A program made the translations under genes and the position numbers. This document shows, one piece after another, positions 9,201 through 36,670 of a DNA stretch of 43,760 nt (the first letter of the stretch is position 1; each line of letters opens with the position of its first letter). This stretch comes from an uncultured Bacteroidota bacterium (lineage in GTDB: Bacteria; Bacteroidota; Bacteroidia; Bacteroidales; VadinHA17). The DNA lies in NCBI GenBank assembly GCA_903844815.1, contig CAIMVD010000101.1, positions 68,220-111,979 of the forward strand, given 5' to 3'. Below the pieces are notes generated by a model. That model made no database searches. It was not told the origin of the DNA and saw only the letters and a list, made by a program, of their open reading frames with translations.

Positions 9201-9498
9201 CGGTCAGAGCACCTGCCGTAGTGCCCTTTACCGTAACAGTTACTCCGGCAAGAGGCTGCCCTTTGGCGTCAGTGACGGTCCCTGTAATCTTCTTCTGAAC
9301 CTGCTCTGTTACAGCAGTTCCGGACGAAGGATCACCTGCTTCAGACAACATACCAGACTTATTCGCTCCGGAAGCGGAAGTAACAAGACTAATTGTTGTC
9401 ATTAAAAAAACCAACAGACCGGTTTTCAAGGCTGCCAGTCCCTTTCTGAGGAAGGCAAACCGATACCCGACCGGGGATTTTAGCCCAAGTTGTTTCAT
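6298..9498 (-). CDS. SusC/RagA-family TonB-linked outer-membrane transporter
   Basis: Second SusC-type channel in the window, 1066 aa from the chosen start. The open frame extends to 9576, but the ATG at 9498 gives MKQLGLKSPVGYRF..., which aligns with the N-terminus of the neighbouring SusC, whereas the upstream 26 residues look untranslated. A signal segment (ALKTGLLVFLMTTISLVTSA) is followed by a carboxypeptidase-D regulatory-like domain (TDAKGQPLAGVTVTVKGTTA), a plug starting GLEEVVVIGYGTSKKEDLS, and a barrel ending in ANINF. It forms a pair with the SusD at 4716-6278. The two SusC genes share architecture but are clearly diverged, so this is not a recent duplication. No dedicated regulator is visible. 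Confidence 0.95.
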   Translation of the reverse strand: MKQLGLKSPVGYRFAFLRKGLAALKTGLLVFLMTTISLVTSASGANKSGMLSEAGDPSSGTAVTEQVQKKITGTVTDAKGQPLAGVTVTVKGTTAGALTDSKGSYEVNAPANSTSLVFSFVGMKTQEIVIGNSATVDALLQEDLLGLEEVVVIGYGTSKKEDLSAAIASVPRAESLKSRPLLSTASAIQGIIPGVTVVNQGGHPDRAPSITIRGIGSQSEGVLYVVDGVPGAPYNPEDIESITILKDAASAAIYGAYAGSAGVILITTKQAKEGKPTVEYSGFYGVKQAWNLPQSLRAEDEARVARLAYTNAGLTSPAGWDAATNPYAQVTRTDWVDEITRVAPVQRHTITVNSGTDKMSNLFQVRYENDEGTLLNTYNNNISLRYNANYKFNKYVSFREEMFWNNNDRRGTDTESGYSGTILSAIYMPRSATAYYDDGTFGGVGPRNDAYLGIHGDAINPVASLLRNQAYNKSSNVISTSELRVTGLIKGLDISSRFSYSAANSLYKSFSPMRTEPGKPNARNSLDYSTGKSFGWIWENTINYSRVFGKHNIGAMVASTAKEDGYRGFSVSGKDFGREDEWAQFFVNAGTFSENRPSDGQWEARNMSYVGRLSYSYADRYFLTGSYRADIAGRLAAGNRTKTFPGVTAAWKLTSEPWFKIEGLDLIKFRASWGRIGNLGAIGLYYGYPNLSSNNTYQIGLNAPLATAAYVASAYNSTLSWETSEQTDFGLDMAFFNRRLSIVADYFKKVTFDLIKQQDTEWTYSYGVDAPYINKGEITNSGIEFQASWNDKVGDLTYGVSGNFATLKNEVTYIDESATAYWIHGNSWRGILTPYRSTVGQPYYSYWLVQNEGIFQSQEEVDAYTYTNPSTGAITKIQPYAKAGDLKFKDQDGNGSIGDGDRVYMGNAFPKLTYGFSGNLGWKNWDLSLFFQGVSGVKLFNAFKESTLNAAEQGYNRWDKILDAWSPTNTGSDIPVIRVNDPNKNFGTSSDWFLEKGDYLRLKNLLIGYTFKNLPWDGKIKVYFSGENLMTFTKYSGMDPEVGGVGFDGGQYPVSRILSFGANINF

Positions 9499-9952
9499 AG
9501 TTTTAAAAGGTTTAGTTAGTAAAAAAATAATTAGAAGATTTAGATTAGTTGTAACTTCAAAAAAAAGATAATGCATTATGTGAAGTCGTTTTCAAGGTTG
9601 CTAAAATATGCATGCTAAAAATCTGTCAGCTTTCCTTTAAAAACAACTTTTGATTATGTAAAAGTAAATCACAAGTGAATTGCTTATTTAACCTTTTTTA
9701 ACAATTTGTAATTCTTTCTTAGCATCATTATTGACATTTAGTATTAATTATGTTAATATAATAGCACTTTTACAGCACGCAAATTAACTTACAAATTATA
9801 ACAATCTGATTACGGAATAATTAAAAATCCGTTACAGTGAGGGAGGTTGAAAAGGAAAATTAAAATGACTATTTGAGTTGAATAAGAAAGACAGTTGTAT
9901 CAACACCATGTTTCTCAGATAACACAAATGCTCCAATCTGCGAAATACAGAA
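9499..9952. other. AT-rich intergenic region (promoter side of SusC-SusD pair)
   Basis: No gene is supported here. It contains the promoter side of the minus-strand SusC/SusD operon and the 3' flank of the exported MBL-fold gene. A weak match to the Bacteroidota -7 element (TATCTTTT on the minus strand, about 60 nt upstream of the SusC start) is present without a well-spaced -33 element, so I do not call a promoter. No hairpin with a clear T-tract was seen. Confidence 0.5.
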
Positions 9953-11046: not shown

Positions 11047-12954
11047 TCAGGATATATCGGCAAGTTCCTTTATTATTCTGATCTGTTTTGCAATATTTCG
11101 CTGTTGGCGCGGAATTACAAGAGCTTCCGCAGCTATTTCGGCGATATCGGCAACTCTTGTTCCGGTTACGGCCGACAGGGTCTTTTTACAGAGGGGACAG
11201 GCTGTTGCCAGAATATCAGGATCTCCCTTCGTAAGCTCAGCTGCCGTCTGGGTTGCTATCCTTATCCTGTCGCGCGAGTCAATCTTCAGGTTTCCAAGAC
11301 TTCCTCCGCAGCAGAGAGAATTCTGATCTTCGAATTTACTTTTTTCAAGCTTCGCAATATGACTGAGTACTTCCTTCGGCTCATCATAAACACCTGAACC
11401 TCTTCCAAGTTCACACGGTGTATGAAATACTACTCTCTTTCGCAGAAAATTAAATTTAACCGTATTTTCTCTGATCAGGTTTCCGATAAACTGGGAATGG
11501 TGAAGAACTTCAACATCGAGGTAATAGCTTTCTTTAAAAACTTTATAGCATATAGGGCATGAAGTGACAAGAGTTCGTGCACCCGTTTTCCAGATCAACT
11601 GCGAATTAAGATTAATAAGTTCCCTGGCTTCCCTGTCGAGGCCCGCAAGCATCATGGGACGGCCGCAACAAATTCCGCCTGCTTCATCAATAAAGCTATA
11701 GCTCAGTCCTGATGCATTCAGAATCTTAACCATTGAGTTTTTAATTCCGGGAGTAAGATGCGACATACAGCCTGCGAAATATACAACATCAACCTTTTTA
11801 GGTTCAGCCTCGGGGATAAAGCCAAATGAAGGCGGCATGACTGGCTTAACCGGTTCAGGTCTCTGCTGCGACCTGAAATATCCTTTGTAGACGGTCCTGA
11901 AATCATTCTCAGAATCTTCCATCCTTCTCTGTATCATCCTTATCGGCGATAATTCAATTCCGACAGGACATTTCTGATCGCAGCGTCCGCACATTAAACA
12001 GTTTTGTGCCATGTGGCTGACATCATCATTTTTGCGAATAGCTTTTAGAAGATATGCCGACTGCATAGTATTAATCCCCGCAGCGAAACTCATCTGGCAG
12101 GCATCGATACAGATGCCGCATGAGGAACATGAATATGTCTGAACTTCTGAATAAGTCCCAGGCTTGTCACCTGTTCTGATTCCTGAGTTGCGCATAAAAA
12201 TAAGGAACAGCTCCGTTGGAATATGCATATATCTTGTCAGTGGAAGAAGAACAAAGAAGGTACCGAGAGAAAGTGAATAGAGCCACCAGAAAGGATATGC
12301 CAGCTCCCTGACAGGAAGAAAAGTGGAAAACCAGGCTCCAAGGGAACCAGTCATAAAACTCCCGTTCCCATAGGCTCCGCTTGTGAAACTCTCAGCAAGA
12401 AGACGACTCGGAAATATCATCCACAATGAGGTAAGTGCAATCCTGTCAGTAATCTTAAGTTTTGTGGTCTTCTTCATCCCAACAACCCGTGAATAGAACC
12501 TCTTCGTCACTGCCAGCAACAAACCGGAAAGAATAAAAGCCAGGATCAGGTCCATCAGGAATCCATATGCAGATTCAAAGCCCGTCCGGCCATGATCGGG
12601 ATTGAAAAACCTGAAGAAAATAGCTTTATAGGGTGCGTTCAGGTGGTGATCGCCAAAGACATCAGCTTCAACAGTTCCAAAGAAAATAAGAAGGAACCAG
12701 CCAAATGCAAGGCTCATATGCATATAACCAAGCCTGAGGTTCGACTTGAGTATTTTACGGTGAATAAGACTTTCAAGGAATATCTCCTTAAGGCTTTCAC
12801 CGAAGGGCTTTCCGAAAAAACCTCTCTGTAGCCTGAGCTTATCGGGACGAGACAAATCGCGGAACCAAATAATGCACCTTACAACTACATAGGTAATTAT
12901 GAAGTACAGACCAATATTGAACGGGATTACAAACGGATCAAACTGCATAATCAT
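11047..12954 (-). CDS. membrane-bound HdrE/HdrD-type fusion iron-sulfur oxidoreductase
   Basis: Predicted quinone-linked electron-transfer protein. The first ~240 residues hold about five membrane helices of the NarI/HdrE/DsrM type, with candidate heme b His residues in LGYMHMSLAF and TRYMHIPTE. Two [4Fe-4S] motifs follow (CSSCGICIDAC and CLMCGRCDQKCP). Two HdrD/DsrK-like CCG modules close the protein (CMSHLTPG...GGICCGR...CPICYK, and TPCELGRG...CCGG...CPLCKK). The same order is known from DsrM-DsrK pairs and from FadF/EMO proteins that pass electrons to menaquinone. The open frame begins at 13023, but that would overlap the previous gene by 86 nt; I chose the ATG at 12954 (MIMQFDPFV), a 17-nt overlap. 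The ATG at 12948 is equally possible. It is the membrane end of the Hdr-like operon. Confidence 0.85.
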   Translation of the reverse strand: MIMQFDPFVIPFNIGLYFIITYVVVRCIIWFRDLSRPDKLRLQRGFFGKPFGESLKEIFLESLIHRKILKSNLRLGYMHMSLAFGWFLLIFFGTVEADVFGDHHLNAPYKAIFFRFFNPDHGRTGFESAYGFLMDLILAFILSGLLLAVTKRFYSRVVGMKKTTKLKITDRIALTSLWMIFPSRLLAESFTSGAYGNGSFMTGSLGAWFSTFLPVRELAYPFWWLYSLSLGTFFVLLPLTRYMHIPTELFLIFMRNSGIRTGDKPGTYSEVQTYSCSSCGICIDACQMSFAAGINTMQSAYLLKAIRKNDDVSHMAQNCLMCGRCDQKCPVGIELSPIRMIQRRMEDSENDFRTVYKGYFRSQQRPEPVKPVMPPSFGFIPEAEPKKVDVVYFAGCMSHLTPGIKNSMVKILNASGLSYSFIDEAGGICCGRPMMLAGLDREARELINLNSQLIWKTGARTLVTSCPICYKVFKESYYLDVEVLHHSQFIGNLIRENTVKFNFLRKRVVFHTPCELGRGSGVYDEPKEVLSHIAKLEKSKFEDQNSLCCGGSLGNLKIDSRDRIRIATQTAAELTKGDPDILATACPLCKKTLSAVTGTRVADIAEIAAEALVIPRQQRNIAKQIRIIKELADIS

Positions 12955-13285
12955 CGGATTTTTGGAATGCCTGGCGCGCCAGTACCACAACGTTTCTCGT
13001 ATTGACTCCACGGGGACAGACAAGGATACACTTGCCGCAAAGCATGCACTTCCTGATATTCTGCCTTACCTTCTCATTTTCCCCGCGTTTTATGAGAATA
13101 TTGAGTTCCCTCAGACTGAATCGCGTAAAATTACCTGTAGTGCAGGTAGCGCTGCAACCTCCGCACTCGATGCAAAGCCTGAAACTGGGCTCTCTTTCAT
13201 AGATATATTCAGCAATTCTCCTGTCGTTGGAATCGTAATCGATCTGCCTGCCCTTAGAAATTGTATATCCAAACTTGTCCATCAC
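12938..13285 (-). CDS. hdrC: small HdrC-like [4Fe-4S] protein
   Basis: Electron-carrier subunit of 115 aa with two cysteine motifs: CIECGGCSATC with a following TTGNFTRFSLREL helix, and CMLCGKCILVCP with RGVNTRNVV. This spacing is typical of HdrC of heterodisulfide reductase and of its homologues in non-methanogens. The segment RKIAEYI-like (DRRIAEYIYEREPSFRLC) precedes the first cluster as in HdrC. It starts 4 nt after the HdrA-like gene and overlaps the membrane Hdr fusion, so it probably hands electrons between them. It is the second HdrC in the operon and half the size of the first. Confidence 0.85.
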   Translation of the reverse strand: MMDKFGYTISKGRQIDYDSNDRRIAEYIYEREPSFRLCIECGGCSATCTTGNFTRFSLRELNILIKRGENEKVRQNIRKCMLCGKCILVCPRGVNTRNVVVLARQAFQKSDDYAV

Positions 13286-13289
13286 GAAA

Positions 13290-14312
13290 CTATTTATTGT
13301 TCAAATAACTAATAACCTCCGTGGCTGCAGCCCTTGAATGCGAAATGGTTTCGGTTATATTCATGGGAGCCGTACAGGTACCGGCGAAAAAGATCCCTTT
13401 GACAGAGCTCCTGTTGCTTCCATAATGCTGGTCTGTAACAGCAAAGAACCTGTTCTCCCCTGCATTTAATCCTGCAAGACCGGCAATTTTCCTTCCTCCT
13501 TCCGACATTTCCATTCCTGCCATCAGTACCAGCATATCAAGTTCCATCTTAAGAGGACGTCCTGCAAGCGTATCTTCAACCTTAATTATAACCTTATTAT
13601 TTATATCCTCACCTGCTTCAGAAACCTTTCCCCTGATGAAATTCACACCCCATTTTTCCTGAGCTTCCCTGTAAAGTTCTTCATACATTGCACCACCCAT
13701 CCTCATATCCATATAGAAACAGAATACCTTCGATTCAGGAAGGTGTTCCCTGATCTCGATAGCCTGTTTAACCGCTGTAACACAGCATAACTTCGAACAG
13801 TAAAGATTTCCGACCTTTTCATCCCGCGAGCCAACACAGTGAACAATGCCGATCGTTTCGGGAGATTTTCCATTATGCAGCGAGATCTTCCCCTTCCTGA
13901 ACATCTTTTCAAGATCTGCGGAGGTATAAACATTATCGTAAATTTCATACCCGTACTCTTCTTTCCTTGAACTGCGGAACAGATCAAATCCCGTTGCCAC
14001 AATCAATGCATCGGCAATAAGCTCTTTCCCTTCACTTGTTGTAACCTTGACACCTCCCCTGCCATTTATGATCTTTTCAATTTCAATCCCCGCGAGCAGT
14101 TTAATCCCATCATTATTTGTAAACTTCTCAAGGTAATCTTTTACTTCCCTGCTATCCCTTCTGTCGGGAAACAGTTTAAACCAGTCATTCAGATGGCCTC
14201 CGGTCATCTTTTCTCTTTCGATAAGACTGACATCAATGCCTGCTCTCGACAGCTGCCCTGCGGCTTCAAGTCCTGCTACCCCTGCACCTATTACAATAAC
14301 ATGCTTGTTCAT
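13290..14312 (-). CDS. hdrA: HdrA-like FAD-dependent oxidoreductase (short form)
   Basis: Flavoprotein of 340 aa resembling the FAD core of heterodisulfide reductase subunit A. The N-terminal dinucleotide-binding loop GAGVAG is at residues 8-13. The HdrA signature CVGSRD...YCSKLCC (mid-protein) is present, followed by YMDMRMGG and FIRGKVSE. The C-terminus has GIFFAGTCTAPMNITETISH, the usual FAD-contact region. It lacks the ferredoxin clusters and long N-terminal domain of methanogen HdrA, so it is closer in size to QmoA or to the small sHdrA of sulfur oxidisers. It lies 6 nt after the HdrB-like gene and 4 nt before small HdrC. The true electron donor is unknown. Confidence 0.88.
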   Translation of the reverse strand: MNKHVIVIGAGVAGLEAAGQLSRAGIDVSLIEREKMTGGHLNDWFKLFPDRRDSREVKDYLEKFTNNDGIKLLAGIEIEKIINGRGGVKVTTSEGKELIADALIVATGFDLFRSSRKEEYGYEIYDNVYTSADLEKMFRKGKISLHNGKSPETIGIVHCVGSRDEKVGNLYCSKLCCVTAVKQAIEIREHLPESKVFCFYMDMRMGGAMYEELYREAQEKWGVNFIRGKVSEAGEDINNKVIIKVEDTLAGRPLKMELDMLVLMAGMEMSEGGRKIAGLAGLNAGENRFFAVTDQHYGSNRSSVKGIFFAGTCTAPMNITETISHSRAAATEVISYLNNK

Positions 14313-14318
14313 AAACCT

Positions 14319-15380
14319 TTATGCGTTAACAAGGATTTCATTACTGACAGCCTCAGACCTGACATCCAGCCTGTACTTGTCAGAAGGATCATAATCTATC
14401 CCGATTTTTTTAAGAAGCGGCTCAACATCAGTCTGGTGCATCTGAAGGCCAAGATCCCATGGATCAAATCCAAGCACCAGTCCCGCAACCTCTTCGTAAG
14501 TAAAAACAGGTATTCCCTCTCCATTTTGCCCGTAGGTAGTGCCTTCCATTTCATTAATAACATACTGCCAACGATCGAGAAACATCGGGCAACCCGGACA
14601 GTTGGTTATTATCATGTCAGGTTTAAAAGGTTTCATCGAATCAAATTTCTCCTTTGAACAGGCAACGGAGTATCCCCTGTTTGCCTGTACCAGATATTGT
14701 CTGAAGCCGAATCCGCAGCAGTGCCTGCGTTCGGGATAATCTATAGTCTCACCTCCCCACTCTTCTATCATGCCTGCCAGGACGTAGGGATATTCTGCGC
14801 CACCAATCCCTTTTGAAGGAAACATCTTGGAATAATGACAACCAATATGGTCCACAACCCTTAATGGTTCTCCGGTTTCTTTATTAACCAGTTTGTATTT
14901 TGCTTTTTCAGCAATCTCTTTTCTGAACTTATAGATAATATCACTTGCATGGGCAAGGTTTCCGGGAACCTTAAACTCGCGTCCGGTTGCTTGCCTAAGC
15001 TGTTTTCGTACCCTTTCCTCTACTTCAGGAAAATGGTGCCAGGTATCAAGGATCTCAGTATAAAGTCCAAAAGATGTTATGCATGAAGGTACGTAGTTGC
15101 TGTATCCTGCTTCGGTCATAAGTGCGAACTGACGTGCCACAACCGTCATTGCCGTATCAACCGGAACCACGTCGCCATGGTAGCCAATCCCGGAACAGGT
15201 AGTATGGCAGGGATGTTCGTAAACGTCCTTTTTCAGAACATCACGCATTATCCTGAGAAAAGCAACTTCCGACCCCGGGAAGAAATTCTGCCTGATACAG
15301 CTCCTGACATAAAAATAATGATCATCCTCAATTTCTTTCTGGTATTCGCTCCAGATAGCTTTTTTGCCCTCTAATTTCAT
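14319..15380 (-). CDS. hdrB: HdrB-like CCG-domain subunit
   Basis: Predicted catalytic disulfide/thiol subunit of 353 aa, related to HdrB. Two cysteine-rich modules are visible. The first has SCIRQNF, PCHTTCSGIG and PSCITSFG. The second has HIGCHYSK, RHCCGFGFRQ and TNCPGCPMFLDRW. In HdrB these bind non-cubane [4Fe-4S] clusters that reduce a disulfide. In the first module the canonical CCG is replaced by TCSG, so one cluster may be altered. The protein is longer than a typical HdrB (about 300 aa) because of a C-terminal extension of roughly 60 residues. It lies between the large HdrC and HdrA genes with gaps of 13 and 6 nt. Confidence 0.85.
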   Translation of the reverse strand: MKLEGKKAIWSEYQKEIEDDHYFYVRSCIRQNFFPGSEVAFLRIMRDVLKKDVYEHPCHTTCSGIGYHGDVVPVDTAMTVVARQFALMTEAGYSNYVPSCITSFGLYTEILDTWHHFPEVEERVRKQLRQATGREFKVPGNLAHASDIIYKFRKEIAEKAKYKLVNKETGEPLRVVDHIGCHYSKMFPSKGIGGAEYPYVLAGMIEEWGGETIDYPERRHCCGFGFRQYLVQANRGYSVACSKEKFDSMKPFKPDMIITNCPGCPMFLDRWQYVINEMEGTTYGQNGEGIPVFTYEEVAGLVLGFDPWDLGLQMHQTDVEPLLKKIGIDYDPSDKYRLDVRSEAVSNEILVNA

Positions 15381-15393
15381 CTTATATGATCAT

Positions 15394-16101
15394 TTAACGT
15401 GTATGGCATCCGTTGTTAGTGGTATAAATATGTTTGAAATACTCATTATCTATACCTTCATCGAGTTCGAGATTCATTTCCGCAGCTTTTTTCCGTGAAG
15501 CCGATTCAATTTTTTCATACCGATCGAGTCCTCCTGTTACTTCAAAAATCTTTCTTAACTCTTCCAGTGTGGCTTCAGGGATCTTCCTGAGAATGCCTGG
15601 TCCGTCGCCCTTATAGTTACCACCTAAACGTTTAAGAAGAGCCTCTTTATTATCCTGAACCCATTCCCAGACAGGCCCCTGTTCAGGGTGCATTGCAACA
15701 CTTATTCCGTCGAGGTAGACACAATATCCGGTACTCAGAATCCAGTCGCCTACGGTCCTTTTGACTGCAAGCTGCTGGCGTCCCTTTTCCGACTCGGTAA
15801 AATACCCAAGGTCTTGCGATAACCCCCTGAGTGCCATGATTATGAGCCCGGGAGCATTTCCGCGCGGGCAGCGGGTCTTGCACGACATGCATTCACCGCA
15901 GTACCAGATAGTCTCCGATTTGAGAAGTTTTAATATTTCATCCTCGTCACCACTCTGGACTGTATCTGCTATTTTTCTGGGATCATAATCGTAAAATTCT
16001 GCTGCCGGGCATATGGCTGTACATACGCCACAGTTCATACAGGCATTAAGCCCTTCTTCGAACCGGATATCCTTTAGAAGCAAATCGTAGAGTTTTTCCA
16101 T
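15394..16101 (-). CDS. hdrC: HdrC-like [4Fe-4S] protein (long form)
   Basis: First gene of the Hdr-like operon, 235 aa. The N-terminal half has two ferredoxin motifs, CMNCGVCTAIC near residue 21 and CGECMSCKTRCP near residue 70, joined by the HdrC-type helix DPRKIADTVQSGDEDEILKLL. The C-terminal ~120 residues (GYCVYLDGISVAMHPEQGP onward) have no cysteine clusters and are not in methanogen HdrC; similar long HdrC proteins occur in bacterial Hdr-like complexes. It should relay electrons between HdrA and HdrB. The start ATG at 16101 leaves 193 nt to the PAP2 gene, the probable promoter region. Confidence 0.85.
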   Translation of the reverse strand: MEKLYDLLLKDIRFEEGLNACMNCGVCTAICPAAEFYDYDPRKIADTVQSGDEDEILKLLKSETIWYCGECMSCKTRCPRGNAPGLIIMALRGLSQDLGYFTESEKGRQQLAVKRTVGDWILSTGYCVYLDGISVAMHPEQGPVWEWVQDNKEALLKRLGGNYKGDGPGILRKIPEATLEELRKIFEVTGGLDRYEKIESASRKKAAEMNLELDEGIDNEYFKHIYTTNNGCHTR

Positions 16102-17079: not shown

Positions 17080-17562
17080 CTATTTCAACAACTTTTCAAT
17101 ATCTTCCTGAAGTTGCTCGGGCTTGGTAACAGATGCGAAACGTTTAACAGGTTTCCCTTCACTATCGATAAGAAATTTGGTGAAATTCCACCTGATCTTA
17201 CTTCCCAGAAAACCTGAAAGACTCTTCTTTAAAAACTTGTATATCGGATGTTCACCGGCTCCGTTTACCTCAATTTTTGAAAACATTTGAAATGAAACAC
17301 CGTAGTTTATCAGGCAGCCTTCTGCTATCTCCTTTTCGGTTCCAGGCTCCTGGTTTCCAAACTGGTTACAGGGAAAACCAAGAATTACAAGGCCCTTATC
17401 CTTATATTTCTGATAGAGATTTTCAAGGCCTTCATACTGAGGCGTGAATCCGCACTTGCTGGCGGTATTTACTACAAGTATCACCTTCCCCTTGTATTCT
17501 TCCATTGATATTTCTTTTCCCTGGAGTGATCGGGCACTGAACTGATAAAAATTTCCTGACAT
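17080..17562 (-). CDS. glutathione-peroxidase-family thiol peroxidase (cytoplasmic)
   Basis: Peroxide-reducing enzyme of 160 aa. The peroxidatic Cys is C37 in [11 protein letters not shown], the Gln is Q71 in [13 protein letters not shown], and the Trp and Asn are in [12 protein letters not shown] further Cys, C83 in [11 protein letters not shown], is placed like the resolving Cys of thioredoxin-dependent family members, so it probably uses thioredoxin rather than glutathione. There is no signal peptide, so it is cytoplasmic. The gene follows the DUF3788 gene by 15 nt. A second family member with a signal peptide lies at 36125-36670. Confidence 0.93.
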
Positions 17563-23477: not shown

Positions 23478-23879
23478 TTATTTTTTCGAATCGGAATCGC
23501 CCGCGACCCTTGACAGTGTAAGCGGAACCTCGCCTTCGGAATAGACTGCCTTGCCTGTCATTTTTGAATCATCTTCCTGCTTAAGGAAAACTTTAATATC
23601 CTGTCCTTCAAGAAAAACAGAAAACTGTACGCTATCCTTCACAGCCTTTACCTGTTCTCCGGGAATCTTATAATCGCCGGCTCCGAATGCCATGGTGGTA
23701 CTGAATTTTTTATTTTCCAGGCTAACAACAATTTTACCGGTATTATATCCTTCAGGTGCATAAGGCGCATCAAATTTCCAGGTTCCAACTGGTGTTGTTT
23801 TCTTTACGTTATTCTGGGCATTAACCACTCCGATCGACATGATTGTGAGCAATACAATTACAATAATCTTAATTTTCAT
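23478..23879 (-). CDS. small secreted hypothetical protein
   Basis: Exported protein of 133 aa with signal peptide MKIKIIVIVLLTIMSIGVVNA. The mature part reads like a small beta-barrel: GTWKFDAPYAPEGYNTGKI, SLENKKFSTTMAFGAGDYKIPGE, KMTGKAVYSEGEVPLTLSRV. I recall the same pattern in other Bacteroidota proteins without assigned function. No cysteines or catalytic motif are visible in the mature part. It ends in a charged tail (GDSDSKK). It lies upstream of the epimerase gene on the same strand but separated by a repeat dyad. Confidence 0.7.
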   Translation of the reverse strand: MKIKIIVIVLLTIMSIGVVNAQNNVKKTTPVGTWKFDAPYAPEGYNTGKIVVSLENKKFSTTMAFGAGDYKIPGEQVKAVKDSVQFSVFLEGQDIKVFLKQEDDSKMTGKAVYSEGEVPLTLSRVAGDSDSKK

Positions 23880-23962: not shown

Positions 23963-24583
23963 TCAGCAACCTCCCGCGGCTTTTTTCTTCTTTCCTGCAG
24001 CTTTGATTACGGGCTTACCTGAAGATGGTGCTTCTGTTTTGGCTGCCTGAACCGATCCTCCGCCAAGAGCAGTACCGGCACTTTTTCTGAAATCATATTT
24101 TGCAAATTCCTCATCAGGACTAGTCGATGCCGGCTTTTGAGGGTTGAGAATAGTATCGAACCAGTAATTCAGCCCTCCCTCCAGCACGAAATTGTTATTA
24201 TATCCGAGTTGCCTGGTAATGAGCCAGGCCTCATTTGCATTTAAGGTACCGTTGGAATAAAAAATGTTCATTTTGACATCCTGGTTTAGGACATCTGTAT
24301 AGTTGTCCGATAACAAGTCATTGAGAGGTATATTTATTGCACCGGGAAGACTGAATTTTTCAAATTCATCCTGGCTTCTCACATCAATAAGCCTTAGTGA
24401 AGGGTCCTTCTTGATTAACATGTCGGCAACTGCATCGGACGTAACATACTGATTGCGTGTATTTACCTCATCGAGCAACTCCTGCGCCGTAAGTTTGTAC
24501 TGTTTTGTCCTGTTGGGAGGAACAGCAGCAATAATTAGTCCCATAGGAACTATAAAAAGTGCAAGGTATGTAAGTGGTTTCAT
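23963..24583 (-). CDS. rhodanese-like protein without active-site Cys, with C-terminal Cys tail
   Basis: Rhodanese fold protein of 206 aa, last gene of the sulfur locus. A hydrophobic N-terminus (residues 4-22) should export or anchor it in the membrane. The rhodanese domain spans about 46-145: LIDVRSQDEFEKFSLPGAINIP, IFYSNGTLNANEAW and VLEGGLNYW. In the active-site loop the usual Cys is absent; Tyr 109 or Ser 110 occupies that place. The only Cys in the whole protein is the last residue, C206, on a flexible Ser/Pro/Lys/Ala/Gly tail (KKKKAAGGC). This suggests sulfur carriage on a mobile arm rather than classical sulfurtransfer. Its start codon is 2 nt from a 7-bp repeat tract. Confidence 0.85.
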   Translation of the reverse strand: MKPLTYLALFIVPMGLIIAAVPPNRTKQYKLTAQELLDEVNTRNQYVTSDAVADMLIKKDPSLRLIDVRSQDEFEKFSLPGAINIPLNDLLSDNYTDVLNQDVKMNIFYSNGTLNANEAWLITRQLGYNNNFVLEGGLNYWFDTILNPQKPASTSPDEEFAKYDFRKSAGTALGGGSVQAAKTEAPSSGKPVIKAAGKKKKAAGGC

Positions 24584-24585
24584 AT

Positions 24586-24627
24586 GTTTAAAGTTTAAAG
24601 TTTAAAGTTGAAAGTTTAAAGTTGAAC
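24586..24627. repeat. 7-bp tandem repeat (GTTTAAA unit)
   Basis: Six heptads in one phase: GTTTAAA three times, GTTGAAA, GTTTAAA, GTTGAAC. It abuts the start codon side of the rhodanese gene and the left end of the nested dyad at 24630-24767. Two further in-sequence heptads (CAAAGTT twice) lie at 24773-24786 on the other side of the dyad. Confidence 0.9.
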
Positions 24628-24629
24628 CT

Positions 24630-24767
24630 ACTCCGAAAAGTCTTTTTTTGCCACGAAGGCGCAAAGGCACGAAGTTGATCCAAGGTAATTTATTAATAAT
24701 ATGCTATTTGTGAGACTTAGCGTCTTCGTGTCTTCGTGGCAATTTCATTTTTTATCTTTTTCGGAGT
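24630..24767. repeat. nested inverted-repeat element (MITE-like) between YedE and rhodanese genes
   Basis: The outer arms are ACTCCGAAAAG (24630-24640) and CTTTTTCGGAGT (24756-24767). The inner arms are TTGCCACGAAGGCGCAAAGG plus CACGAAG (24649-24674) and CTTCGTGTCTTCGTGGCAA (24724-24742). The core is AT-rich and has no ORF. It separates the second YedE gene from the rhodanese gene in an otherwise compact minus-strand locus. No transposase is encoded, and a target-site duplication could not be recognised because both flanks are heptad repeats. Confidence 0.75.
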
Positions 24768-24793: not shown

Positions 24794-25384
24794 TCAATAC
24801 TCTTCTCTTGGAAATTTCTTCTCAGCCAGTTCTGCTACCCAGAACATACCCAGCGCAACGATGATGAGGAGAAAGGCAAAGACACCGTCAGTCAATCCAA
24901 GAGTCTCGCTGATCTTTGGCGAACCCAGGAATTTAGCCATATACATTCCATCCCAAAGATTAAAGCCGATTCCAAAAATAAATACGCCAATGAAAAGCCC
25001 GCCGATAAAGACCAGAGCGTCTATCTTTCCAATAGACGCGCCACAGAAACTCGTCCCCGGACAATAGCCCCCGATAATAAACCCAGCGCCCATGATTATC
25101 CCTCCTACTATTGCCGAAGTCAGATAAGTGGGGTTCACATATACAAGGTTCAGGTCGATCCATCCGAACAGGCTGAAAAAAAGCAATCCCAGCATGGCAG
25201 TTATTGCAGCCGTGAAAAACACCTTAAGAACAACTGTGTCGTAGCCATAAAAGACACCTGCAAGTTTCCGGCTCGATGAAAAGCCGCTCATTTCCAGAAT
25301 GAATCCAAATCCTATTCCTATTATGAATGCAAGAAATAAATTGGTATTCTCTGATATTAATTCATTGACTGATAATGGACCCAT
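24794..25384 (-). CDS. YeeE/YedE-family sulfur transporter, half-size (second half)
   Basis: Integral membrane protein of 196 aa with about five or six helices. The signature IIGGYCPGTSFCGA carries two Cys and matches the GxCPGT loop of TsuA/YeeE thiosulfate transporters, where Cys residues pass the thiosulfate ion along the channel. An earlier FGFILEMSGFSSSRKLAGVFYG segment is also typical. It is half the length of TsuA, and together with the neighbouring 178-aa gene it would make one full pseudo-symmetric transporter. It lies in the Psr/rhodanese locus, so thiosulfate or another sulfane sulfur compound is the likely cargo. Confidence 0.85.
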   Translation of the reverse strand: MGPLSVNELISENTNLFLAFIIGIGFGFILEMSGFSSSRKLAGVFYGYDTVVLKVFFTAAITAMLGLLFFSLFGWIDLNLVYVNPTYLTSAIVGGIIMGAGFIIGGYCPGTSFCGASIGKIDALVFIGGLFIGVFIFGIGFNLWDGMYMAKFLGSPKISETLGLTDGVFAFLLIIVALGMFWVAELAEKKFPREEY

Positions 25385-25523: not shown

Positions 25524-26060
25524 CTATATCCAGTTCCGTCTGAAAAAATATGCCAGGGCAAAAGCCGTTCCGAATATTGCCATCATTGTGACAAAGCCTC
25601 CCAAGGAAAGGACTGCCATTCCGCTAAGTGCTGAACCACTTGTACAACCTCGTCCAAGTTGGGAACCGAAACCAAAAAGCACTCCTCCGGTCAAAGCCAG
25701 GATGAGTCTTTTACGGGAAGTAATTGAAGGAGAATGTTCCACCTTAAATTTCAATCGTCCGGCAAAAGCACCAGACAAAAACCCACCCACGAGGACACCC
25801 ATCATCTCAAAAACAAGCCAGGTCTTCATAGGGCTTCCCTGGTGCGACTGACTGAATTCCTTTACAAACCCGGATTTTTCAGATGCAGAAGGAGCTACAG
25901 TATTCATTGTAGTAACCACGGCGCTCTTTATCGCTCCACTGGCACCGAGGCCTCGTCCTGAAACAAAATTTGCAGCAAGCAAAACTATTCCAAGCAGTAC
26001 TCCACCCAGATAAGGATTAATATACTTTCTTACTTTTCTTGTTTTGTTCAATTTAGTCAT
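25524..26060 (-). CDS. YeeE/YedE-family sulfur transporter, half-size (first half)
   Basis: Integral membrane protein of 178 aa. It has a basic N-terminus (TKLNKTRKVRKYINPY), helices GGVLLGIVLLAANFVSG, WLVFEMMGVLVGGFLSGAFA and LILALTGGVLFGFGS, then QLGRGCTSGSALSGM with the conserved Cys of the family, and a final helix with a basic end (FFRRNWI). It is the counterpart of the 196-aa YedE-like gene downstream. The start lies 40 nt after the PsrC-like gene, so it belongs to the same unit. A role in thiosulfate or sulfane-sulfur uptake is inferred from family and neighbours. Confidence 0.83.
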   Translation of the reverse strand: MTKLNKTRKVRKYINPYLGGVLLGIVLLAANFVSGRGLGASGAIKSAVVTTMNTVAPSASEKSGFVKEFSQSHQGSPMKTWLVFEMMGVLVGGFLSGAFAGRLKFKVEHSPSITSRKRLILALTGGVLFGFGSQLGRGCTSGSALSGMAVLSLGGFVTMMAIFGTAFALAYFFRRNWI

Positions 26061-26100: not shown

Positions 26101-27042
26101 CTAATACAGCCATCTGCTGACCTGACCCGCGTATACAATAATAAACCTTAGCGCCAGGCTTCCGATAATTACAAGGACGGCAGGTACTATTACCGGTATA
26201 TGAAATTTCTTAAGTTCCATAATTTCAAGCACAGCAGGCAGTATCATACCAAGCATTACAACAAAGATCCAGAACGACATTGTATATTCTCCACCAAGGA
26301 ACATATTGACTGCCTCTATCTGTACCTGTGCACCCGCAAGGAATCCCATAAACATATGGATAATAAGGAAAAGTTCGATACCTATAAGCACAAGGTCAAT
26401 CCTTGCAAACTGTTTCCTCTCAGCCTTGTCCTTTGAAAGCAGTAGTGTAGCGGCTGCTCCTGCCGATAGGCCTGAAGCCAGAAACAAAGGACCAAGTATT
26501 GATGTATTCCATAAGGGGCGGGCGTTGAAAGCAGATAACAGGATTCCTGTATAGATACCCAATATTATTGCATAAATTAACATTACCCAGGCAAGAACCA
26601 TTTTGTATTTATTGAAAAATACCTCTGTTTCCTTCAGCCATGAAAATTTCCAGTCCCAGCGGGGATAGATGTCTCTTATGTGAAGCGCACACCAGATAAA
26701 CGATACAGGAGTTATCACCATGAGCGTCCATGCTCCCCATGACATTGGCGACTGCAACTTTATGTTTGTATACAGCTGCCAGAAAAAAAGCTTATGGCGA
26801 AGATCAATAAACAGGGCCACAAGTCCTATAATAAGAAGGAGAGGCGCAAGAAATGGAGTTATCCTCACAGCGGTGCTGTAATCCTTTTCCCTTCCCCTGA
26901 TATAATATAGTGCTGCTATGGCAAGTATCCCTGCTGCCATCCCTCCCAGGAAAAGATAAATGGAGATCTGCCAGTGCCAGATATGAAGATGAGGATCGAC
27001 AAGCTGGTTCATTCTTCCACTTACAATAAGTTCTTCTTTCAT
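26101..27042 (-). CDS. psrC: NrfD/PsrC-type quinol-interacting membrane subunit
   Basis: Membrane subunit of 313 aa with about eight helices, NrfD/PsrC family. The N-terminal WHWQISIYLFLGGMAAGILAI stretch and the later LSAFNARPLWNTSILGPLFLASGLSAGAA block are family hallmarks; the latter region lies at the quinol site. Further helices include VLIGIELFLIIHMFMGFLAG and FWIFVVMLGMILPAVLEI. It should oxidise menaquinol and deliver electrons to the PsrB-like ferredoxin. It starts 20 nt after psrB and is followed by the two YedE genes. Confidence 0.9.
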   Translation of the reverse strand: MKEELIVSGRMNQLVDPHLHIWHWQISIYLFLGGMAAGILAIAALYYIRGREKDYSTAVRITPFLAPLLLIIGLVALFIDLRHKLFFWQLYTNIKLQSPMSWGAWTLMVITPVSFIWCALHIRDIYPRWDWKFSWLKETEVFFNKYKMVLAWVMLIYAIILGIYTGILLSAFNARPLWNTSILGPLFLASGLSAGAAATLLLSKDKAERKQFARIDLVLIGIELFLIIHMFMGFLAGAQVQIEAVNMFLGGEYTMSFWIFVVMLGMILPAVLEIMELKKFHIPVIVPAVLVIIGSLALRFIIVYAGQVSRWLY

Positions 27043-27062: not shown

Positions 27063-27596
27063 CTAGATCAGAAAGTATAGTTGCGGCGACGTGCCTGCTT
27101 CCGGAATAAGAGTCTTGTATTTCCTCTTCTTAAGGACGACCGAAACATCACTGTTAGGATCGTCAAGGTCGCCGAAATAAAGACATTTCGTCGGACATAC
27201 TGCGGTGCATGCAGGGGTCAGCCCGTTCTTTATCCGGTGCTCACAGAAGGTGCATTTATCGACATAACCATCGGGATGAGGATAACGCGCATCGTAAGGG
27301 CACGAAGCTATGCATGCCCCGCAGCCTATGCATTGAGAATGTTCCACCATGACTATTCCTCCCTCCACAAAATGGCTCGCTCCTGTAGGGCAGCACCTTA
27401 CACAAGGCGCATTTTCACAGTGGTTACACCTTTCCGATCTGATTTCCATCTCAAGCTGGGGATAGGTTCCGTCCATTACTTCTACTACCCAATCGCGGCA
27501 AAATCCTATGGGGACCTTATTTTCAGTCTGGCATGCAACTACACAATCGCTGCAGCCTACGCATTTTCGTGTATCAACGGCCATTGCATATCTCAT
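27063..27596 (-). CDS. psrB: PsrB-like four-cluster ferredoxin subunit
   Basis: Electron-transfer subunit of 177 aa with four [4Fe-4S] motifs: CVGCSDCVVAC near residue 14, CNHCENAPCVRCCP, CIGCGACIASCPYDARY, and KCTFCEHR...CTAVCPTKC. This is the DMSO reductase/polysulfide reductase B pattern. It carries no signal peptide, as expected for a subunit exported with its Tat partner. Its ATG overlaps the stop of psrA by 4 nt, so the two are translationally coupled. Confidence 0.93.
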   Translation of the reverse strand: MRYAMAVDTRKCVGCSDCVVACQTENKVPIGFCRDWVVEVMDGTYPQLEMEIRSERCNHCENAPCVRCCPTGASHFVEGGIVMVEHSQCIGCGACIASCPYDARYPHPDGYVDKCTFCEHRIKNGLTPACTAVCPTKCLYFGDLDDPNSDVSVVLKKRKYKTLIPEAGTSPQLYFLI

Positions 27597-29830
27597 AATG
27601 CTGCCTCCTCTTCTGTTTTTTCTGTAACAAATGTTACAAAATTCGATCTCATTCCGGTTCCTCCCATAATAGGATCAACAAGGACATTAGTAATTAACTG
27701 TGTGTCGCTTACACCGCGGCCAAAACATCTTTTCAGCTTTTTCTCGGCATGTCCGAATCCGTGGACCATATATACCGAATCCCATCGTATGCGCTCGGTA
27801 ACCCTTACCTTAATAGGGAAATCCGAGATAATATCATTCTGGTTTTTCAGCCAGATGTATTGATCAGGTTTCAATCCCCACTCCTTTGCAACCATTGGGT
27901 TAATCCAGACAGTGTTCTCATCCATAAGATCGGTAAGGTTGGGATTGTTTGCAGTACGACTGAAAGTGTGCATCGGAGCCCTTCCGTATATGAGGCGGTA
28001 ATAACCCTCTGTCGGTTCTTCGTGGGGTGTATACTTTGGTATCGGATCAAATCCTGCACCCTCAAAATAAGCTGAGAAAAGTTCTATTTTCCCGGAGTCA
28101 GTTGAAAATTCAACATCTTCATTGTCAGAAAAGTAGAGATCGTCTGCCTCCCTTTCGAATGTTTTCACACCAATACGTTGCATCTCTTCAAGCGATGATC
28201 CTGCCTTTTTCAACTGGGCATCCAGCATCTCTTCCTGTTTTTCGAATGGGAAATAATCTGCAAGATTAAGTTTTTTTGAAAGGTCCCTTGCAATGGTGTA
28301 ATCTGATTTTGTATCGTATAATGGTTCGGTTGCAGGCATCCTGAGCGCGATGGCAGGCTTCCTGTGAGGAGCAGCCCTGAGTGTATCATACCTCTCGAGA
28401 TAAGTACATTCAGGCAAAACAACATCTGCCCAGCCGGTTATTTCCATAGGCATGGTATCGACAACAACAAGTAGTTCAAGATTCTGGATGGCCTTCAGTG
28501 TATTGGCCTGATTTGGTATTGTGAATATAAGATTCGTTCCGTTAACAAACCAGCCTTTAATCGGGTAAGCAGGATTATTTTCCGGAACTGAAGCATCAAT
28601 AAGGGCATTCGATACCGGAGAACTGGCAAGAGGATATTTTCCGGGGAAGAGATCCTGCCAGCTCTTTGCCGGCGCTTTAAATGCCGGGATTGCGGATGCA
28701 GGAAGTGCGAATTTGGAAGGACGGTAAAAACCTCCGCGCCGTCCCCATGATCCGAGAAGTGCGTTCAGAATAGCGACTGCCCTGATCCTCTGAGTGTCAT
28801 CTCCATACCAGGTAACATGCCTTCCCGGATGAACAATTACAGCCGGCGAAGCATCGGCCATTTCTTTTGCAGTCTTCCTGATCAGATCGGGCTTGATGGT
28901 GGTTATAGCATAAGCCCATTCAGGCGTGAATTCACTGACATACGCTTTCAACTGATCAAAACCCATACAATATTTTTCGACATATTTTCTGTCGTAATAT
29001 TCATTGTAAATGATCTCATGAATCCAGGCAAGAAGCAGGGCAATATCGGTTGATGGCTTGATGGGAAGCCAGAATTTTGATTTGCCTGCTGCAGTTGAAA
29101 ATCGCGGATCAACTGTTATAATTGTGGCTCCCTTATCGATTGCATCCGACATCTCCTGAACCTGACCATTGTGCATGTTTTCGCCAATATGCGATCCAAT
29201 CAGCACAAGGCATTTTGTATCACGGATATCGGTTATCTCGGGTGAGTATGCCTCCTCTCCAAATGTTGCCATGAAGGCCTCATCTCTTGGTCCCCGGCAT
29301 TGTGCATACGAAGGTTCGGCAATATTAGCAGTTCCGAATGCCTTTAAGAGAGTCGTAAAATAGGTTGAACCTGATCCGTGAGTAAAAAGAGCCATGGTCT
29401 CCGGTCCATAATCTGCTGATAGTTTTTTCATCTTCCCGGCAATCAGATCAAGCGCCTCGTCCCATGTAGCCTCACGAAACACCTGCTTTCCCCTCTCTTC
29501 AACCCTTATTAGTGGCGTTTTCAGACGGTCTTCATCATAATACATCCCGACACCGCCTGTTCCCCTTGGACAGAATCGTCCATTGCAGTGCTGGTCATCA
29601 TCATTTCCGATTATTTTCCAAATCTTCCCTTCAGAGGTCTTGTACACCCATCCGGCACATTTCCAGAAGCAAACCTCACAATAGGTAGGTGTCCTCCTTA
29701 AATCTACAACAAGTTTTTTCACCTCTTCCGGTGATGAGAGTGCCTTTACTACCTTGAAAGCTCCAGCTCCCACGGCTATAGCCCCTGCTCCCAGTGCTGA
29801 AATCCTGATAAAATCTCTCCTGCTGACCAT
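27593..29830 (-). CDS. psrA: PsrA/PhsA-like molybdopterin oxidoreductase, Tat-exported
   Basis: Catalytic subunit of 745 aa. The N-terminus MVSRRDFIRISALGAGAIAV is a Tat signal. Cys 51, 54, 58 and 87 (CEVCFWKC...FCPRG) bind the proximal [4Fe-4S]. C178 in SYAQCRGPRDE is the candidate Mo ligand, as in polysulfide and thiosulfate reductases. Later pterin-binding segments include VHPGRHVTWYGDDTQRIRAV, VVDTMPMEITGWADVVLPE and INPMVAKEWGLKPDQ. The frame is open to 29851 through a GTG codon, but the ATG at 29830 gives the better Tat signal. The CEVCFWKCAGWV and CPRGTGGVGMY text resembles polysulfide-reductase-like proteins of green sulfur bacteria. Neighbouring sulfur transporters and rhodanese favour thiosulfate or polysulfide as substrate; arsenate or tetrathionate are less likely alternatives. 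Confidence 0.9.
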   Translation of the reverse strand: MVSRRDFIRISALGAGAIAVGAGAFKVVKALSSPEEVKKLVVDLRRTPTYCEVCFWKCAGWVYKTSEGKIWKIIGNDDDQHCNGRFCPRGTGGVGMYYDEDRLKTPLIRVEERGKQVFREATWDEALDLIAGKMKKLSADYGPETMALFTHGSGSTYFTTLLKAFGTANIAEPSYAQCRGPRDEAFMATFGEEAYSPEITDIRDTKCLVLIGSHIGENMHNGQVQEMSDAIDKGATIITVDPRFSTAAGKSKFWLPIKPSTDIALLLAWIHEIIYNEYYDRKYVEKYCMGFDQLKAYVSEFTPEWAYAITTIKPDLIRKTAKEMADASPAVIVHPGRHVTWYGDDTQRIRAVAILNALLGSWGRRGGFYRPSKFALPASAIPAFKAPAKSWQDLFPGKYPLASSPVSNALIDASVPENNPAYPIKGWFVNGTNLIFTIPNQANTLKAIQNLELLVVVDTMPMEITGWADVVLPECTYLERYDTLRAAPHRKPAIALRMPATEPLYDTKSDYTIARDLSKKLNLADYFPFEKQEEMLDAQLKKAGSSLEEMQRIGVKTFEREADDLYFSDNEDVEFSTDSGKIELFSAYFEGAGFDPIPKYTPHEEPTEGYYRLIYGRAPMHTFSRTANNPNLTDLMDENTVWINPMVAKEWGLKPDQYIWLKNQNDIISDFPIKVRVTERIRWDSVYMVHGFGHAEKKLKRCFGRGVSDTQLITNVLVDPIMGGTGMRSNFVTFVTEKTEEEAAL

Positions 29831-30259
29831 AAAATTTTGATAAATCCTCACAAAAATATCAAAAAGAAGATGCGATAATTTAAATATTTATATAAATAGA
29901 TATATGAAATTCAGCCACAGAATAAAACCTTCTGTTAACAAATTAACAATCTGATCAATATCACTTATTTAGAATTAATATAAATTATATTCCGGTCTCA
30001 AATTACTGAACAGCAGGTAAAAAAGTATATATAATATTAAAACCTCATAAACCGGAACCCTGCCGGAAAAAAGCAGGTATCGGGTATAAAATTTATCAGA
30101 TAGCACTATTTTGCCTGCGGTCAATGTTATCTAAAGCTATGAAAAAAAGAAGTTTAAAAAAAGGAACTTGCACAACAGTGCGAAAATTTGTAACATTTTA
30201 TTATTTTTAAGGTGACTATGAATAAGTTAAATTTGTGATTACATCTTAATACTATTTTA
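29831..30259. other. divergent intergenic region between psrA and pfk
   Basis: AT-rich gap that must contain promoters for the minus-strand psr locus and the plus-strand phosphofructokinase operon. I saw no complete FNR/CRP-like palindrome (the fragment TGATCAATATCA near 29950 is only a partial match), no strong terminator and no ORF of its own. Confidence 0.5.
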
Positions 30260-36124: not shown

Positions 36125-36670
36125 CTATTTTGAGCCTATCCAGGCAAGTACTTTATCCGAATTGGGTTTCTCTTTAGAATAAATTACATCGACAAGTTTG
36201 CCATTCTCATCTATAAGGTATTTCTGGAAATTCCATTTGACATCAGAGTCCATAACGCCGTTAAGATTTTTCGATGTAAGCCACTTGTAAAGAGGATGCA
36301 TATCATCCCCCTTGACAGAGATCTTTTCCATAAGAGGAAATGTAATCCCGTAAGTATCATTGCAGAATTTTCTGATATCCGATGCGGTTCCCGGCTCCTG
36401 GCTAAGGAAATTATTTGCCGGAAATCCTATTATCACAAGATTCTCGCCGTACTCTTTATAAACGGCCTCAAGTTCTTTATACTGGGGAGTGAATCCGCAT
36501 TTTGAAGCAGTATTTACTACCATAACCTTTTTCCCCTTCAGTGTACTGAAATCAAAATTTCCTCCTTCAAGTGTTTTGACCTTGAAATTATAGAAACCTG
36601 ATGTCTGTGCAAAACCGGTTAATGAAAACACAGTTGTTAAAATTATTGCTATCAGTCTATTTATTTTCAT
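36125..36670 (-). CDS. glutathione-peroxidase-family protein with signal peptide
   Basis: Exported peroxidase of 181 aa. Residues 1-22 are a signal peptide (LIAIILTTVFSLTGFAQ). The peroxidatic Cys is C58 ([11 protein letters not shown]), Gln is Q91, and the Trp/Asn are in VKWNFQKYLID. The usual FPCNQF is changed to FPANNF (A85). C103 in RKFCNDTYGITFP is at the place of the resolving Cys in thioredoxin-type members. It is thus the periplasmic counterpart of the cytoplasmic one at 17080-17562. Its start is 42 nt from the divergent CAP-domain gene. Confidence 0.92.
   Translation of the reverse strand: MKINRLIAIILTTVFSLTGFAQTSGFYNFKVKTLEGGNFDFSTLKGKKVMVVNTASKCGFTPQYKELEAVYKEYGENLVIIGFPANNFLSQEPGTASDIRKFCNDTYGITFPLMEKISVKGDDMHPLYKWLTSKNLNGVMDSDVKWNFQKYLIDENGKLVDVIYSKEKPNSDKVLAWIGSK

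Follow-up and report, generated by a model that had tools for sequence, protein, structure and literature searches.

DsrC is a sulfur carrier that bears its Cys on a mobile C-terminal arm, and Sud is a periplasmic rhodanese-fold protein associated with Psr, which uses its loop Cys and feeds Psr in Wolinella. For the SoxYZ carrier, a role of the C-terminal GGCGG of SoxY is described in PMC6067878. As described in PMC11073785, the relay of the Spirochaeta YeeE runs, from the first to the third cysteine, through C293, C91 and C22, then reaching YeeD C17 on the cytoplasmic side, and the partner of YeeE in the solved complex is this cytoplasmic YeeD. In PMC11582611, transfer from the SoxY Cys along a YeeE-like channel is only called conceivable, and the spacings of about 7 Å make direct transfer questionable. 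In these papers, the periplasmic sulfur loading of YedE-family channels is a gap, for which the rhodanese-like protein described below, RHO, is a candidate partner; no description of a rhodanese with a terminal GGC beside a split YedE was found in the available text of the open-licence PMC papers searched.

The window, that is, the whole stretch of 43,760 nucleotides analyzed, carries on its minus strand the gene order PsrA-PsrB-PsrC-YED2-YED1-RHO, with the following features:

23963..24583, minus strand: tailed rhodanese-like protein RHO, 206 aa (ORF, PF00581, fold)
24521..24577, minus strand: RHO N-terminal hydrophobic anchor, residues 3-21 (hydropathy, model helix)
24158..24433, minus strand: RHO rhodanese domain, residues 51-142 (PF00581)
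24239..24265, minus strand: RHO former active-site loop IFYSNGTLN, residues 107-115, without Cys (translation, alignment)
23966..24067, minus strand: RHO flexible Lys/Ala/Gly-rich arm, residues 173-206 (pLDDT, variable columns, charge)
23966..23974, minus strand: RHO terminal Gly-Gly-Cys, residues 204-206 (conservation)
24794..25384, minus strand: YED1, half YedE/Sulf_transp (N-half, PmpB-like), 196 aa, with C108 at 25061-25063 (PF04143)
25524..26060, minus strand: YED2, half YedE/Sulf_transp (C-half, PmpA-like), 178 aa, with C139 at 25644-25646 (PF04143; PDB 6leo, E = 8.2e-4)
26101..27042, minus strand: PsrC/NrfD-like membrane subunit, a frequent neighbour (PF03916)
27063..27596, minus strand: PsrB/NrfC-like 4Fe-4S subunit (Fer4_11)
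27593..29851, minus strand: PsrA-like molybdopterin subunit, PhsA-like, whose N-terminus shows, by eye, a twin-arginine-like SRRDF (2vpw, E = 1.4e-198)

RHO is read from ATG to TGA in the ORF 24583..23963, so that the coordinates given by an earlier note on this DNA are correct, with the strand being minus. Its description of a loop free of Cys and of a single Cys on a flexible tail was borne out as well: the translation holds one Cys, the final residue C206, the loop window has none, and residues 176-206 are predicted to be disordered, with a pLDDT below 50 in the AlphaFold2 model. The rhodanese fold is supported by the PF00581 match (E = 9e-14) and by the nearest folds to the model, which are single-domain rhodaneses (Foldseek, E about 6e-6), and the catalytic Cys that classical rhodaneses carry at the start of the active-site loop is missing. 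The N-terminal hydrophobic helix, placed at residues 3-21 by hydropathy, spans residues 3-19 in the model.

Regarding the known carriers, RHO shares with SoxYZ the features of a protein, in its case probably periplasmic, having a Gly-flanked Cys near a mobile C-terminus, with the Gly on the N-terminal side only; however, it has another domain, ends in GGC, is membrane-anchored and is tied to a split YedE or Psr instead of Sox. It shares with DsrC the Cys on a mobile C-terminal arm, but it lacks the DsrC domain and is probably exported. Its membership in either family was rejected, as PF00581 is the only domain matched in RHO at E ≤ 0.001: the SoxY domain PF13501 is absent from it, and the DsrC domain PF04358 is absent both from it and from the matches of the source genome, where the E. 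coli control was positive. In the SoxY search of that genome, the control was silent. The best reading is, by analogy, that the RHO arm would work like those of SoxY and DsrC while belonging to neither family. A weak profile match (E = 7.5e-4) leads to 1qxn, deposited as 'sulfide dehydrogenase', which we take to be Sud. RHO resembles Sud as a rhodanese-fold protein with a Psr association, but its loop Cys is gone and its thiol lies at the tip of the tail instead.

Both transporter genes encode Sulf_transp halves, YED1 covering positions 9-156 and YED2 positions 170-309 of the PF04143 profile. C108 of YED1, invariant in 157/157 rows, aligns with C94 of E. coli TsuA, and C139 of YED2, invariant in 154/154 rows, aligns with TsuA C302; through these, the equivalents of the relay cysteines C91 and C293 of S. 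thermophila YeeE are present, following PMC11582611 and PMC11073785. The predicted structure of YED1, with a pLDDT of 56, is too poor for geometry. The arrangement is like that of PmpAB, with its two half-length subunits having one conserved relay Cys each (PMC11582611), but differs in that the strong YED1 relatives come with a tailed rhodanese, and distant split-YedE loci (L325-L327, Sulfuricella) are without the tail. The PsrA, PsrB and PsrC-type subunits stand in order, and the solved structure that best matches PsrA is the thiosulfate reductase 2vpw. As separate observations, two close relatives have YED1 in two pieces (L038 2656-3133, L039 7219-7634), from a broken gene or an assembly error, and a protein of 133 aa with a signal-like N-terminus lies 3' of RHO (window 23478-23879), near RHO in 8 of 40 neighbourhoods and matching nothing in Pfam/NCBIfam.

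For the conservation of the terminal Cys, the window's sequence was aligned with 52 relatives, which had been retrieved via patterns that leave the tail aside; 53/53 sequences have G204, G205 and C206, and the tail columns 173-198 reach a top-residue frequency of only 47% on average. The profile search of the RHO family (E ≤ 1e-6) over 220 loci resulted in 193 unique ORFs: 170 closed ones with GC within two residues of the end, referred to below as tailed ORFs, four cut by contig ends, and 19 other closed ones. Among these 19, the frame of L180 is broken close to its end, where an alternative frame reads GGC, L197 ends in QC and L024 is a gene piece; the rest are other or longer rhodaneses, or copies without the tail that accompany clade-B carriers. 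The Cys is the final residue in 148 of the 170 tailed ORFs and is followed by one residue in the remaining 22, position -2 being Gly (148), Glu (18), Met (3) or Asp (1), and the last 30 residues are net positive in 168. Since the tail Cys is encoded by TGC in 89 cases and TGT in 81, and the preceding Gly uses all four codons, selection acts on the amino acid and not on the DNA. To gauge the background, a slightly altered pattern was applied (GC, GGC, GSC or GAC with no more than one residue behind it); 20 ORFs outside the family, several of them antisense, matched it among 5,812 closed stop-to-stop ORFs of at least 80 aa in the loci, a total that includes family members.

As a test independent of the tail, YED1 alone was used as the query against 198 genomes of the phylum and 60 relatives, giving 40 matches in 35 of the former and 54 matches in 35 of the latter. 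The count from this search took the loci of 30 of the 40 phylum matches, the later strong match G194, and 29 new loci from the 54 matches in relatives; most of the remaining strong matches are loci already obtained through RHO and stand outside it. A GC-ending rhodanese lies beside or is fused to YED1 in 30/30 phylum loci (one of them the window's own) and in 27 of the 29 further loci of the relatives, and the rhodanese of G194 ends in EGC. Conservation of the tail Cys had been set beforehand as the refutation test of the carrier idea, and in total the tail is kept in 58 of the 60 loci with strong YED1 matches, the other two being contig-cut: in one, a short contig holds a fragment of YED1, and in the other the rhodanese is cut by the contig end. 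The carrier idea was thus not refuted. These counts also bear on the view of RHO as a decayed rhodanese with a terminal Cys by chance, which agrees with the loss of its loop Cys; the presence of the tail in 58/60 loci and the synonymous turnover of its codons speak against that view, so that a chance or decay origin was rejected and its probability is close to nil. The GGC-tailed dead rhodanese is, therefore, strongly supported as a conserved feature.

The rule holds for this YED1 subfamily and not for all split YedE, as no tailed rhodanese (0/3) was found at the three weak YED1 matches (E from 3e-16 to 5e-14), the distant split-YedE pairs L325, L326 and L327. In two of them (L325 827-4161, L327 1951-4580), a frame of 484-489 residues matching the rhodanese profile stands just upstream of the pair, with no GC-tailed ORF. 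A fourth weak match, G031 (E = 6e-11), is a longer YedE whose contig also carries a tailed locus, and on the Sulfuricella plasmid a tailed rhodanese was not found. Of these four weak matches, two came from the phylum set and two from the relatives. Among the 60 relatives, the same 34 carry both RHO (best E < 1e-20) and YED1 (best E < 1e-40), with thresholds chosen after the tables were seen; because of the kinship among these genomes, the counts cannot be treated as independent.

The earlier note had proposed a docking role towards the YedE transporters or the Psr complex, and both occur as neighbours, YED1/YED2 being the usual one. A YED gene lies within 4 kb on the same strand for 164 of the 170 tailed ORFs, and 32 of the 170 are fused to a transporter half. 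PsrC lies within 9 kb for at least 109 of the 170, a lower bound, because many stretches around the fused forms are only 3-6 kb long. The paralogue of the source genome (L032) has the order YED2-YED1-RHO, with no Psr in 16 kb. Of the six tailed ORFs that lack a YED gene nearby, four are at contig starts (L056 twice, L102, L135) and two are the tandem pair of the genome G355 (L076/L218/L329; L218 10-5157), where PsrABC is directly followed by two tandem tailed rhodaneses. The 12 kb stretch of G355 holds no YED gene, and YED1 matches nothing in this genome, which is listed as 99% complete, an absence that is meaningful because the same query matched in 35/198 and 35/60 genomes; thus, the tail can exist without a YED1 channel, with Psr alone. 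Consequently, neither complex is an obligatory partner, Psr being rejected as such by L032 and the neighbour counts, and YedE by G355.

Such loci could also suggest a Sud-like carrier that feeds PsrA with polysulfide sulfur, or removes it, with YedE as a second user. Sud feeding Psr in Wolinella is the model for it, RHO stands in the same gene row as a close PsrABC, and the PsrC counts and G355 agree with it. However, the YED gene near 164/170, the fusions, which involve the YedE half, and the paralogue without Psr make this priority of Psr rather unlikely. Instead, the neighbour counts, the fusions, L032 and G355 together favour RHO as a carrier with the split channel as its usual client and Psr as a second client or supplier.

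The side of the membrane can be approached through the same family. A hydrophobic segment precedes the rhodanese domain in 161/161 members scored (9 of the 170 lacked the scoring motif). In the fusions, the layout is the last helix of YED1, a K/R-rich linker, the RHO anchor and then the domain, the linker having a mean of 4.75 K/R and a net charge of +2 in the 28 fusions scored, with 4 of the 32 left out. As this linker is probably cytoplasmic, the rhodanese domain would lie in the periplasm. Lipobox-like signals were found by expression in two tailed members, both of one locus, and by eye in a third (L053), and the charge balance flanking RHO's own anchor is weak and indecisive. The export put forward by the earlier note is supported by these sequence features, and the RHO domain and tail are probably periplasmic.

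This location matters for the comparison with YeeE-YeeD (TsuA-TsuB), where a YeeE-type channel likewise has a dedicated partner offering an extra Cys, YeeD C17, the 'fourth cysteine' (PMC11073785). Here the partner is a rhodanese, probably periplasmic, and the split channel has no third Cys: YED1 carries Ser at the site of E. coli TsuA C25, which corresponds to C22 on the cytoplasmic side. The tail Cys could then be imagined at the cytoplasmic exit of the channel, standing in for the third cysteine and for YeeD, both absent from the split transporter, and the only TusA match of the genome, on another contig, would be consistent with that. The fusion layout and the members with lipobox-like signals point to the periplasm instead, making such an exit role improbable. 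The related idea of the tail Cys as a substitute for the missing relay Cys was set aside as the leading interpretation, since the absent Cys is the cytoplasmic third one, and is kept as part of this alternative.

The near-constant pairing of a Cys-tipped dead rhodanese with a split transporter therefore suggests sulfur delivery to the transporter outside the inner membrane. The preferred reading, with a probability of roughly 0.52, is that the tail Cys would make RHO a membrane-anchored, periplasmic carrier that moves sulfur on a swinging arm, mainly for the split YedE and at times for Psr. As a sulfur carrier in general, RHO is moderately supported, and the sulfur chemistry at C206 and the hand-over to YED2 C139 are presumed. 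In the proposed mechanism, the rhodanese domain, having lost its catalytic loop Cys, would serve for docking or positioning. On a mobile positive arm of about 30 residues, the C206 thiol may pick up sulfane sulfur (persulfide, polysulfide or thiosulfate), and the arm would then give it to, or take it from, the periplasm-facing C139 of YED2, the counterpart of the 'first cysteine' C293 of the Spirochaeta YeeE, from which sulfur would move to C108 of YED1. C206 could thus be regarded as a 'zeroth cysteine' at the entry, mirroring the 'fourth cysteine' of the TusA-like YeeD at the cytoplasmic exit. PsrABC would often act as a second client or supplier, and in at least one genome no other was seen. 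By analogy, the caution about spacings of about 7 Å applies to such a RHO/YED relay as well.

The element carried might be selenium instead of sulfur, as selenium transport is the annotated function of some YedE proteins and the source genome has a TusA-domain protein adjoining a SelD-like ORF, by eye. However, that SelD-like ORF is on another contig and many tailed members sit with a complex of the thiosulfate/polysulfide-reductase type, so selenium is held to be very improbable. The TusA domain in question (L256), the genome's sole match, is the N-terminal domain of a longer protein.

Regarding the loop, the 14 columns of its window are free of Cys in 161 of the 170 tailed ORFs, all of distinct sequence, and the tail Cys is the sole Cys from the domain start to the end in 145. 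The co-variation of the GGC tail with the missing loop Cys, raised by the earlier note, therefore holds for most members, but 9/170 have a Cys somewhere in the window, and two tailed two-domain proteins keep a classical loop Cys. The latter are the third rhodaneses of L051 and L053 (VYCNTGHH, VYCYTGQH), with a lipoprotein-like N-terminus and the same kind of GGC tail. An intact catalytic Cys had been named as evidence against the carrier idea, and these proteins half provide it, though they also link the tail to exported sulfurtransferases. As a control, 38 rhodanese ORF rows were taken from the PF00581 loci of 13 genomes, covering part of the matches, with several rows being fragments of one gene. 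None of the 10 tailed rows has a loop Cys, and the 28 tail-less rows comprise 16 with it and 12 without; merged by eye, they become 8 tailed genes, none with a loop Cys, and 26 tail-less ones (16 with, 10 without). Those 12 rows include the first domains of two-domain rhodaneses and copies beside clade-B carriers. A dead loop alone thus means little, as 12/28 tail-less controls share it, and the loss was rejected as a sufficient marker. The source genome itself has seven rhodanese ORFs, two of them tailed, and four of the other five have the loop Cys. Not every RHO-like copy is a carrier, because three clade-B loci (L032 8211-8690, L060 1952-2464, L065 7314-7844) have a second rhodanese-like copy after the carrier, in frames of 160-177 aa, without loop Cys or GGC. 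Adjoining the clade-B carrier on the opposite strand, L032 also has a two-domain lipoprotein-like rhodanese (8715-9788) with the intact loop CGTGHNS, a candidate sulfur donor.

Tandem rhodanese copies were compared in eight loci, giving 12 pairs with bodies only 17-31% identical. Eleven pairs share 7-10 of the last ten residues, and only 5 are common to the L058 pair and to a thirteenth pair, whose members lie in separate loci of one contig (L171); between loci, the similarity has a mean of 4.5 and a maximum of 9 of the last ten residues, with GGC supplying three of the ten. The tail codons of tandem copies differ synonymously in L075, L029 and L031, and the tail DNA is almost identical in L051 and L076, indicating that gene conversion also contributes. 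This joint retention of the tail Cys and tail sequence, with the Cys usually the only one, could also fit a structural role, where a disulfide, a metal site or a lipid or other anchor fixes the tail to a partner or to the envelope. To such a role little credence is given, since the invariant channel cysteines occupy known relay positions and an N-terminal anchor is already present.

Returning to the carrier reading, a broader and more tentative proposal would be a covalent relay through the inner membrane with a detachable first station, in which the Cys that ends the arm of a rhodanese would fill or empty a split YedE from the periplasmic side by direct Cys-to-Cys transfer. Such a relay would operate in Bacteroidota and in at least one Gemmatimonadota, with the GGC arm as a portable module, common to dead one-domain and loop-Cys two-domain rhodaneses and able to serve Psr. 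With its single Cys ending a mobile arm and, in some members, a fusion to a channel half, such a partner makes the hand-over addressable by single-residue mutants. In addition, a rhodanese judged inactive solely by its loop may nonetheless be a sulfur carrier, and the set YED2-YED1-rhodanese-GGC offers a marker of sulfur handling in strains of Labilibaculum, Marinifilum and Carboxylicivirga as well as in uncultured Bacteroidales.

Concerning its distribution, 59/395 genomes match the RHO profile, and the tailed family is also present in other classes of the phylum. The 80 loci among 159 relatives come from Bacteroidota; most are from Bacteroidales or Bacteroidetes MAGs, one record bears the title Chlorobiota, and the named strains belong to Carboxylicivirga, Labilibaculum, Marinifilum, Ancylomarina and Sunxiuqinia. 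The plasmid search with YED1 gave two records. On one Gemmatimonadota replicon, a YED1 match is followed by a rhodanese with the loop YSEGG, whose sole Cys in the translated stretch is in the ending RRRGC, with YED2 recognized by eye.

Elsewhere in the window, the RHO/YED1 intergenic region (24590-24760) shows, by eye, AAAGTTTAAAGTT in repeated units, along with the inverted pair GCCACGAAGG...CTTCGTGGC. Two glutathione peroxidase-like proteins were also noticed by eye (17080-17562 and 36125-36670), and the minus strand of 11047-16101 encodes two CCG-domain proteins, a 4Fe-4S protein and a flavoprotein, a group with the look of a heterodisulfide-reductase type and a possible cytoplasmic partner.
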